This document shows, piece by piece, positions 19,398 through 27,258 of a DNA stretch of 27,258 bases; position 1 is the first letter of the stretch, and each line of letters begins with the position of its first letter. The DNA is from a virus. The notes below the pieces were generated by a model that worked only from the letters and a program-made list of their open reading frames with translations, did no database searches and was not told the DNA's origin. The position numbers and the translations under genes are program-made. The stretch is from positions 1 through 27,258 of IMG/VR virus record IMGVR_UViG_3300033143_001610, one strand, 5' to 3'.

Positions 19398-19737
19398 CTG
19401 TAGCGTCTAATGTAAATGTTAATTCTATAATAGAGTCATGTGTTGGTCTAAGATTATCATTTAATACCCATTTACCTGTAGGTGATTTAACTATCAAAGC
19501 TTTAGACTTCATAGTATTTAAATACCTACTTAAATTTGACTCACTTACACTCAGTGTATTCTTCATTACACTCCTACAAAGAGATGAGTTTATATTAGCC
19601 TCATTCCCATTTGCATCGAGCATTAATATAAATGAGAATACCTCAACCTCCCTTTTGGAAAGTTGAAGTACACCATTTAATATGTTAACATACTCAGTGT
19701 AAAGCGAATCTTTAGTCACTTTCTTCCTGAGATTCAT
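19330..19737 (-). CDS. Winged-helix-like putative DNA-binding protein
   Basis: 135 residues. Residues 20 to 98 read as a winged helix: NGVLQLSKREVEVFSFIL, MLDANGNEANINSSLCRSVM, then SVSESNLSRYLNTMKSKAL as the recognition helix region and IVKSPTGKWVLNDNLRP as the wing. The C-terminal 35 residues are acidic and Gly-rich, and overlap the next gene. Phage proteins of this kind may be late regulators or the DNA-recognition subunit of the terminase. Position upstream of the terminase makes both possible. It overlaps the zinc-ribbon gene by 26 nt at its start. Confidence 0.55.
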   Translation of the reverse strand: MNLRKKVTKDSLYTEYVNILNGVLQLSKREVEVFSFILMLDANGNEANINSSLCRSVMKNTLSVSESNLSRYLNTMKSKALIVKSPTGKWVLNDNLRPTHDSIIELTFTLDATDDGAGENNKGFSQEIPEGSEGN

Positions 19738-23507: not shown

Positions 23508-23508
23508 C

Positions 23509-23536
23509 AGTAGGGGGAGCCGTTGGCTCTTCTACT
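23509..23536 (+). other. Strong hairpin after the first early gene
   Basis: AGTAG-GGG-GAGCC-GTT-GGCTC-TT-CTACT forms a 10-bp stem with an internal loop, beginning 1 nt after the stop at 23507. There is no T-run after it, so it is not a standard terminator; it may stabilise or be a processing site for the early transcript. Confidence 0.5.
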
Positions 23537-23621
23537 CAAACCAGTAATAACCTAGCTACGTGATACACACAACTATCAAATCTATTGCACTCATAGCTAT
23601 AACACTAACAATACAACAACC

Positions 23622-24031: not shown

Positions 24032-24051
24032 TTCTCATGACTGTGAGGATA

Positions 24052-24215
24052 AGGTTACCGAAAATTTAAGTACGTAACCTGGGGTGATTAGCAAGACCTT
24101 GCAAGGGTTGAGAAGGATTACCCCAAATAATGCTGCAACGCTGACCAGTAATGGTCTAACATAGTTAGCGTTACACTCCGATATATAGTGGTTTTAAATC
24201 GTCCACTATGGGGTG
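24052..24215 (+). ncRNA. Candidate structured RNA (four consecutive stems)
   Basis: Four stems follow one another with almost no spacer. (1) AGGTTAC (24052-24058) with GTAACCT (24074-24080). (2) GGGGTGATT (24081-24089) with GATTACCCC (24116-24124), including wobbles. (3) AACGCT (24137-24142) with AGCGTT (24167-24172), enclosing the GNRA-type hairpin GACCA-GTAA-TGGTC and a small TAAC/GTTA hairpin, like a three-way junction. (4) CACTCC (24174-24179) with GGGGTG (24210-24215), then ATAGTGG with CCACTAT after a 5-nt bulge. No ORF longer than 10 codons begins here. It precedes the 291-residue gene by about 65 nt. A regulatory leader or a stand-alone phage RNA is possible; it does not match a family known to me. 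Confidence 0.55.
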
Positions 24216-24280
24216 TTTAGGAACTTTGTTATTATTACAAATCATCACAAATTATTAACTAATAATTAAAATTACACACA

Positions 24281-25156
24281 ATGAGTAACACAAAAAGAAA
24301 ACTCAAAGACCATGAGATTAAAGCTCTTTTAATTTCAGAAAATCCTGGGGTATTTGACAGAACTAACCCTCATGTAGCCCAAGTACATCGTGTATTTATC
24401 ACTGGTTACAACAAAAAGACGGGTGAAAAGAAAAGCGAACCACGCTTTGTTCAAACATCTAATCCGACAGATGAAGCACAAGCTGTTGATATCACATCAT
24501 CAAGGTACATCCGGGCAATGGTTGAAGTTGCATTAAATGATGTAACAGGAGATACTGGTTTAAAAGCTGGTAGACATTCAAAAAAGCCTGTAACAGCAAA
24601 CATCTTTGAATCAGCCCAACCAAGTACATTTAAAGATTTCTTCGCCTTATTACAAGAGAAGAATGATGCTGGTGAATATACCGGTATTGGTAAAATCATA
24701 AAAACCAAAGACGGTTTACCAACAGCTGAATGTACAAGGGGTATCTATGGTAAGATATTTAAGTTTAATGTGCATGAACATTTCCTGGTTAACACAGCAA
24801 AAGGCTCTGATGAAAGAACCTTCCTTGAATCAGGTACCTATAACATTGACACCAATGAATGGGTTAAGGAGAAAGCAAGAGATACAGTCTTGACTATGTT
24901 TGTAGAAGATGACGATACAGGTTTTGGGGACTTGTTAGCACAAGCAGTTAAACTGTACAAAAGAAAAGTAATGCCTTATTTCACTAACATGGCAGTTGTT
25001 GAAAATGCTCTTAAAGCATCAGATACAGTCAAAGGTGATGATGAGGACAAATCAGCAAGTCCTAAAGCCAAAGAGGAGAAAGTGGACACTGATAATCTTG
25101 TGACTGATAAAGAGGAAGACAACATCAATGATGATGCAGAGACTGACAATCCGTAA
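24281..25156 (+). CDS. Acidic-tailed early protein, possibly single-strand DNA binding
   Basis: 291 residues. Residues 1 to 235 look like a globular mixed fold (VHRVFITGYNKKTGEKKSEP, ARDTVLTMFVEDDDTGFGDL, KLYKRKVMPYFTNMAVVE). The last 45 residues form a long acidic tail (VKGDDEDKSASPKAKEEKVD, then EEDNINDDAETDNP). A basic or aromatic core with an acidic C-terminal tail is the plan of phage single-strand DNA-binding proteins such as T7 gp2.5 and T4 gp32, but I cannot align it to them, so this is inference. A separate structured leader and a strong 3' hairpin suggest high expression, which fits an abundant DNA-binding protein. Confidence 0.5.
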   Translation: MSNTKRKLKDHEIKALLISENPGVFDRTNPHVAQVHRVFITGYNKKTGEKKSEPRFVQTSNPTDEAQAVDITSSRYIRAMVEVALNDVTGDTGLKAGRHSKKPVTANIFESAQPSTFKDFFALLQEKNDAGEYTGIGKIIKTKDGLPTAECTRGIYGKIFKFNVHEHFLVNTAKGSDERTFLESGTYNIDTNEWVKEKARDTVLTMFVEDDDTGFGDLLAQAVKLYKRKVMPYFTNMAVVENALKASDTVKGDDEDKSASPKAKEEKVDTDNLVTDKEEDNINDDAETDNP

Positions 25157-25166
25157 AAACTCATAA

Positions 25167-25182
25167 CCACTTCCCCAAGTGG
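25167..25182 (+). other. Short hairpin after the 291-residue gene
   Basis: CCACTT-CCCC-AAGTGG is a perfect 6-bp hairpin with a tetraloop, 10 nt after the stop codon and 6 nt before the longer terminator-like hairpin. Confidence 0.55.
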
Positions 25183-25188
25183 ATTACT

Positions 25189-25245
25189 AAACGTGTTAGG
25201 TGTACATAACTGGCAGTACACTTAACATGTTTATATTTATTCTAT
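25189..25245 (+). terminator. Long hairpin and T-rich tail, probable terminator
   Basis: AAACGTGTTAGGTGTA (25189-25204) pairs with TACACTTAACATGTTT (25217-25232) over 16 bp with two G-T wobbles, closing a 12-nt loop, and is followed by ATATTTATTCTATT. The T tract is interrupted, so termination may be partial. It follows the 291-residue gene. Confidence 0.6.
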
Positions 25246-25250
25246 TGTTC

Positions 25251-25287
25251 ATTTACACCAGGCCCTTCTGTGCCTAGCCCCGTAAAT
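25251..25287 (+). promoter_or_regulatory. Hairpin leader before the 82-residue gene
   Basis: ATTTAC (25251-25256) pairs with GTAAAT (25282-25287), and AGGC (25260-25263) with GCCT (25272-25275) inside it. The ATG of the next gene is 13 nt on. The hairpin could occlude or protect the translation start. Confidence 0.4.
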
Positions 25288-25299
25288 ACCAACTAAATT

Positions 25300-26845: not shown

Positions 26846-26865
26846 AATACTATACTTATTCACAT

Positions 26866-26950
26866 TAAGGTAAGGAGACAATAACACACGTTACTAAACC
26901 AAGACATGATAACTTGAAAAATACATCAATTGGCTTGTCTCCTCACCTTA
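26866..26950. repeat. 15-bp inverted repeat with 55-bp spacer
   Basis: TAAGGTAAGGAGACA (26866-26880) and TGTCTCCTCACCTTA (26936-26950) are complementary at 14 of 15 positions. The spacer holds a further CCAA/TTGG pair and no gene. The right arm ends 16 nt before the ATG of the DnaA-like gene, so it may act as an RNA hairpin at that gene's leader, or as a DNA site such as an operator or an origin element. Confidence 0.6.
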
Positions 26951-26966
26951 TATTAAAATCAACACT

Positions 26967-27258
26967 ATGGATATAGAACTCATGAAATTTGGTAAGTTCT
27001 TATTAAGAGAACTAAAAATACCATCTAAAACAATAAATTGGGAAGACATAATTCATAAGTTTCATTTAAACCATGTCAAATTAAGACGTGGTATACATTC
27101 TATCAACCAACATGTAGCATGGTTTTTCGAAAAAGATCCACTTGAAGTACAAAAATACAAAGGTAGAAGAGAAGAACTGATATTACCTAAACAAATAGCA
27201 ATTTACATTGCCTTGCGTTTTTACAACCTACCTTCAAAAGAAGTAGCTATATTTTATG
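26967..27258 (+). CDS. DnaA domain IV-like protein, N-terminal part (cut by window edge)
   Basis: 97 residues are visible from ATG at 26967. The second half (VKLRRGIHSINQ, then KYKGRREELILPKQIAIYIA and LRFYNLPSKEVAIFY) resembles DnaA domain IV, the DnaA-box-binding helix-turn-helix domain, where (R)+RE+V.PRQIAMYL.....S...IG..FG is the family pattern. Phages sometimes carry this domain alone, perhaps to bind DnaA boxes in the phage origin or to interfere with host initiation. The conserved DHTTV-type signature would lie beyond the window edge, so the call is not complete. The start is preceded by an A/C-rich stretch and an inverted repeat. Confidence 0.55.
   Translation, partial: MDIELMKFGKFLLRELKIPSKTINWEDIIHKFHLNHVKLRRGIHSINQHVAWFFEKDPLEVQKYKGRREELILPKQIAIYIALRFYNLPSKEVAIFY

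Follow-up and report, generated by a model that had tools for sequence, protein, structure and literature searches.

The segment at 24052-24215, part of a crAss-like phage fragment from the environment, very probably adopts as RNA a single well-defined fold of four hairpins, and it is best filed as a candidate structured phage RNA that is without relatives in the databases searched. This fragment, called the window here, comprises 27,258 bases and is a virus record of IMG/VR. It encodes the major capsid protein of Crassvirales (PF23898, E 3.5e-185) as well as terminase and portal proteins that match phrog_6681 and phrog_6547. The closest full-length terminases of other viral contigs share 73-76% identity with that of the window (best segment), and for the named crassviruses identity is 57% or lower, cr118_1 being the top match. 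The minus strand carries the genes as far as ~23.1 kb and the plus strand those from ~23.3 kb onward, and the plus-strand block is taken to be the early operon, after the layout of crassvirus genomes. The RNA lies in this block, in a spacer (24032-24280) flanked by a 44-aa ORF and a 291-aa ORF. The first-pass annotation had described the stretch as gene-free, which is borne out by the ORF list and by a check for a missed or recoded gene, in which no substantial frame was found in the standard, TAG-recoded, or TGA-recoded codes. No intrinsic terminator, in the sense of a G+C-rich stem followed by a U-tract, was found on the + strand of the spacer.

Table 1. Positions of the features discussed in the text (window coordinates unless a genome is named).
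Feature	Position	Strand	Details	Basis or score
Gene-free early-operon spacer	24032-24280	+	structure and AU-rich 65-nt tail	ORF list; no substantial ORF in alternative codes
Hairpin P2	24052-24080	+	7 bp AGGUUAC/GUAACCU (24052-58/24074-80), 15-nt loop	pair probability 0.76-0.93, all contexts
Hairpin P3	24081-24124	+		pair probabilities 0.99 and 0.91
P4 region	24128-24173	+	inner hairpin robust, outer stem ambiguous	inner helix probability 0.71-0.97
Hairpin P5	24174-24215	+	13 bp with 5-nt bulge GAUAU	pair probabilities 0.99 and 0.93
AU-rich spacer, structure to start codon	24216-24280	+	18% GC	composition, unpaired probabilities
291-aa early protein	24281-25156	+	acidic C-terminal tail	distant homologs in G001 and G002
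Next spacer, after 291-aa gene	25157-25299	+	18-bp inverted repeat (25188-25233)	z -4.24
Early-operon spacer	26846-26967	+	long hairpin	z -4.67
Hatchet ribozymes	L034 9338-9456; L045 15600-15728; L048 6908-7034	-		Rfam
Hatchet ribozymes	L046 8624-8747, 10800-10938; L047 8508-8633, 12000-12128			Rfam
Hatchet ribozymes	L049 11392-11519; L050 12048-12147			Rfam

The four adjacent stems, the GNRA loop, and the 13-bp bulged stem that had been noticed by inspection all recur in the predicted fold, as hairpins P2 to P5 (Table 1). P3 consists of a 9-bp outer helix (GGGGUGAUU/GAUUACCCC, 24081-89/24116-24) and an inner helix (GACCUU/AGGGUU, 24095-100/24104-09) that are joined by the internal loop AGCAA/GAGAAG, while P5 combines the helices CACUCC/GGGGUG (24174-179/24210-215) and AUAGUGG/CCACUAU (24185-191/24203-209). 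Within P4, the inner hairpin GACCA-GUAA-UGGUC (24143-147/24152-156) is closed by a GUAA loop of the GNRA type, and the outer-stem strand AGCGUU(A) pairs with either AACGCU or UAAUGCU, neither register exceeding a probability of ~0.5 when the flanks are present; with flanks added, this strand also has an alternative longer-range pairing. Hence the inner GNRA hairpin of the three-way-junction-like unit described earlier is retained and the junction itself is unreliable, because the P4 outer stem has competing partners. All four hairpins are still predicted when flanks are added to the segment, and an outer helix that encloses the whole element (~24041-24249) is then seen. Pairing of the P2 loop with the P5 loop in a kissing interaction (AUUUAA/UUAAAU) was considered and set aside, as it would comprise only six A-U pairs.

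The comparison of folding energy with shuffled controls that the first-pass annotation had proposed came out in favor of the structure: the minimum free energy is -52.9 kcal/mol, against -38.1 +/- 4.2 kcal/mol for the shuffles (z -3.53), 3 of 200 of which were as stable, and in a second set 2 of 1000 dinucleotide shuffles were as stable. A stronger measure than energy is how well the fold is defined, in that 41 pairs have a probability >0.9, compared with an average of 12 among the shuffles, of which not one in 1000 gets to 41. The extent of pairing, which had been thought improbable for an ordinary spacer, is ordinary here, the mean pairing of 0.60 being matched by 121 of 1000 shuffles. Among 663 windows of 164 nt on both strands of the fragment, the segment ranks third; its boundaries were chosen by eye, and the nearest unselected tile (24027, + strand) has a z of -3.96. 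As few as 3 of 426 GC-matched natural crassvirus segments were as stable. We consider it unlikely that the segment has no specific function and is GC-richer intergenic sequence (43% GC, compared with 34% in the fragment) derived from termination or recombination hairpins that folds well by chance. Such an origin would agree with the base composition, with windows inside genes that are equally extreme, and with conservation not having been found, and a chance rate of ~1 in 65 to 1 in 500 is not decisive in a scan of 663 windows; however, it fits poorly with a near-certain pair count that no shuffle equals, with the strand bias, and with four independent hairpins that follow one another consecutively.

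This strand bias, with a z of -1.74 on the opposite strand, arises because the G-U pairs of P3, P4, and P5 are lost there, and it points to an RNA transcribed in the same sense as the operon. The same G-U pairs, which favor the + RNA strand over its complement, make it extremely unlikely that the segment acts instead as DNA, for example as a replication origin or a cruciform by the genome strand-switch, even though the fold with DNA parameters has a z of -3.17 and the cumulative GC skew reaches its minimum ~1 kb upstream, close to where the genes diverge. The skew changes because the coding strand switches at 23.2 kb.

Two more spacers of the operon, the one that follows the 291-aa gene and the one at 26846-26967, are equally extreme (Table 1), and stable intergenic hairpins are therefore common here and not peculiar to 24052-24215; the early-operon spacer 23508-23621 is not unusual (z -1.72). 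The long inverted repeat at 26866-26950, between early genes, has the stem TAAGGT-AGGAGACAA / TTGTCTCCT-ACCTTA. The top folding window of the fragment, 19517-19680 on the - strand (z -6.4), lies inside predicted minus-strand genes.

The earlier statement that no known riboswitch, ribozyme, or tRNA fits the segment agrees with the searches of known families. Rfam 15, with its riboswitches, ribozymes, RAGATH RNAs, and tmRNA, gave no match to the window RNA at the gathering score and, at E<=10, only chance matches to eukaryotic and archaeal snoRNAs and lncRNAs, and a tRNA/tmRNA scan by ARAGORN gave 0 genes. Eight candidate stretches of the window were scored for hatchet (RF02678, core plus P1-P4) and none matched, nor did the window RNA match RAGATH-7 (RF03159) or RAGATH-9 (RF03146). 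Nothing above chance was returned by blastn of the region against phage and plasmid collections, and in 36 records plus a further 80 loci a covariance model of the RNA matched only itself. In viral contigs, the exact pattern of P3 had zero matches, and an exact-pattern scan gave one 17-base match that was attributed to chance and is not surrounded by structure. The P4 pattern occurred in 87 stretches, and the 80 that were examined were judged to be chance because the full 5-bp stem is present only in the window and most of them have no downstream GCGTT partner. The stability of the fold and the exclusion of known families agree with the proposal of a novel structured RNA, which would call for conservation or covariation as well, and the two relatives that encode a homolog of the 291-aa protein do not retain the RNA in recognizable form.

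What is known of other crassviruses bears on the location of the window RNA. In 2015, hatchet ribozymes were without any example in completely sequenced genomes (PMC4604424), and the literature searched contained no paper combining 'crAss' and 'hatchet ribozyme'. When the early regions of cr6, cr60, cr115, cr125, cr10, cr50, and cr1 were searched with Rfam, every one of them had one or two hatchet ribozymes, together with varied combinations of RAGATH-7, RAGATH-7-assoc, RAGATH-9, RAGATH-20, RAGATH-22, and permuted tmRNA; the hatchet-bearing genomes (L034 and L045-L050 in Table 1) are seven named Suoliviridae (Crassvirales). A whole-record search placed hatchet in the same 7 of 13 named genomes, as was the case with RAGATH-9 at E <= 0.001 (5 of the 7 being above the family cut-off), and neither was found in cr118, crAss001, phi14:2, cr272, cr7, Dulem virus 42, or the window lineage. 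RAGATH-7, -7-assoc, -20, -22, and the permuted tmRNA are patchier than RAGATH-9 across these seven genomes, and in L046 and L047 the RAGATH-9 end is the annotated tmRNA start. Structured RNAs are evidently kept in the early-gene gaps of crassviruses, and the location of the window RNA therefore favors a genuine RNA. Folding energy says little on function either way, since the known crassvirus RNAs of the early niche (mean z -1.1) fold like the unlabelled gaps (-1.2); most known RNAs of the niche are less extreme than the window RNA.

The window RNA resembles RAGATH-7, RAGATH-9, RAGATH-20 (RF03048), and RAGATH-22 (RF03098) in phage order, early-gene strand, similar size, and placement in gene-free spacers amid small genes, but none of their covariance models matches it. 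Hatchet sits in this genomic niche in seven gut crassviruses and was not matched in the window or in the closest relatives of the window. That the segment is a free-standing noncoding RNA or a self-cleaving ribozyme, specific to its lineage and filling the hatchet/RAGATH niche, is possible if on balance rather unlikely. The presence of hatchet and RAGATH-9 in the early region, where this could be read, of 7 of 13 named genomes would be in keeping with it, as would a size of 164-210 nt, which is within the RAGATH range, the unusually well-defined fold, and the outer helix that appears with the flanks; the results that argue against it are the lack of any Rfam match at E<=10, of a second copy or homolog, and of a recognized catalytic core.

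Our preferred reading, which we hold tentatively, is that the window RNA acts in cis in the early mRNA, as an intercistronic or leader RNA specific to this lineage. Its fold, strand bias, and position come directly from computation; that it is transcribed and acts in cis we infer, as we do the mechanism. When the early operon is transcribed from the + strand, 24052-24215 would fold into four stable hairpins, which would separate the 291-aa cistron from those of the small genes upstream; the 291-aa start codon lies outside the hairpins, beyond the AU-rich spacer. The hairpins would most likely fix a processing point or the stability of the downstream transcript, or tune its translation, and they are possibly a putative binding site for a phage protein. 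Consistent with a leader are a fold that is stabler and far better defined than those of shuffles, the strand bias, the persistence of the hairpins when flanks are added, the stable hairpins in other spacers of the operon, and the known structured RNAs in early-region spacers of named crassviruses.

Further evidence for a leader comes from distant homologs of the 291-aa protein, which are encoded in two crass-like contigs, G001 and G002 (21-24% identity). Direct searches with the 291-aa protein as query (viral contigs, genome contigs, and phages) gave no relative, it has no match in Pfam, PHROG, or PDB, and the two homologs, used as queries for further relatives, each found just the other. Their genes lie behind gene-free stretches of 755 and 435 nt in G001 and G002, which as a whole have z values of -2.56 and -4.65 against shuffles and have A-rich tails, and the operon spacers of two relatives have unusually stable hairpins too. 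Against the leader reading, no homolog of the RNA was found, the leaders in G001 and G002 have no recognizable sequence resemblance to it, short windows inside the L031 spacer are only weakly unusual, one spacer of the operon itself is ordinary, and energy is a weak guide, as the known crassvirus RNAs demonstrate. A weak similarity between the L031 leader and the window RNA (TAATGCTG..ACCAG..GTCTA) was rejected, as 197 of 300 shuffles were as good. The homolog leaders at L031 4885-5010 (-) and L032 6255-6375 (+) have a short similar stretch, TCGT.ACTG.CTC.ACCCACAA, the score of which was matched by 9 of 300 shuffles.

In phage T4, gene 32, which is early and encodes an acidic-tailed protein, is preceded by a structured element and then an AU-rich leader, and the window has the same succession of structure, AU-rich leader, and early acidic-tailed gene. 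By this analogy, the 291-aa protein would bind single-stranded nucleic acid and repress its own translation by binding the structure and the AU-rich tail, which we regard as very unlikely. The acidic C-terminal tail, the early operon, the order of structure, 65 nt of 18% GC, and start codon, and the structured spacers with A-rich tails before the homolog genes would all suit autoregulation of this kind. The window differs from T4, however, in having no demonstrated pseudoknot, no family match backs an SSB identity for the 291-aa protein, its AlphaFold models (pLDDT 42-43) are too poor for a fold search, and an acidic tail is not evident in the G002 homolog.

The early regions of crAss-like phages contain long gene-free spacers with hatchet ribozymes and with RAGATH RNAs that are unassigned in function, and the occurrence of a family-less RNA at the same placement in an environmental relative would suggest that different lineages fill the niche with different RNAs, and would be an entry point to the role of the early-region RNAs. 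It is a doubtful prospect that the window RNA represents a structured phage RNA of a new class, perhaps self-cleaving, that takes the place of hatchet and RAGATH in the early region of an environmental crassvirus lineage.
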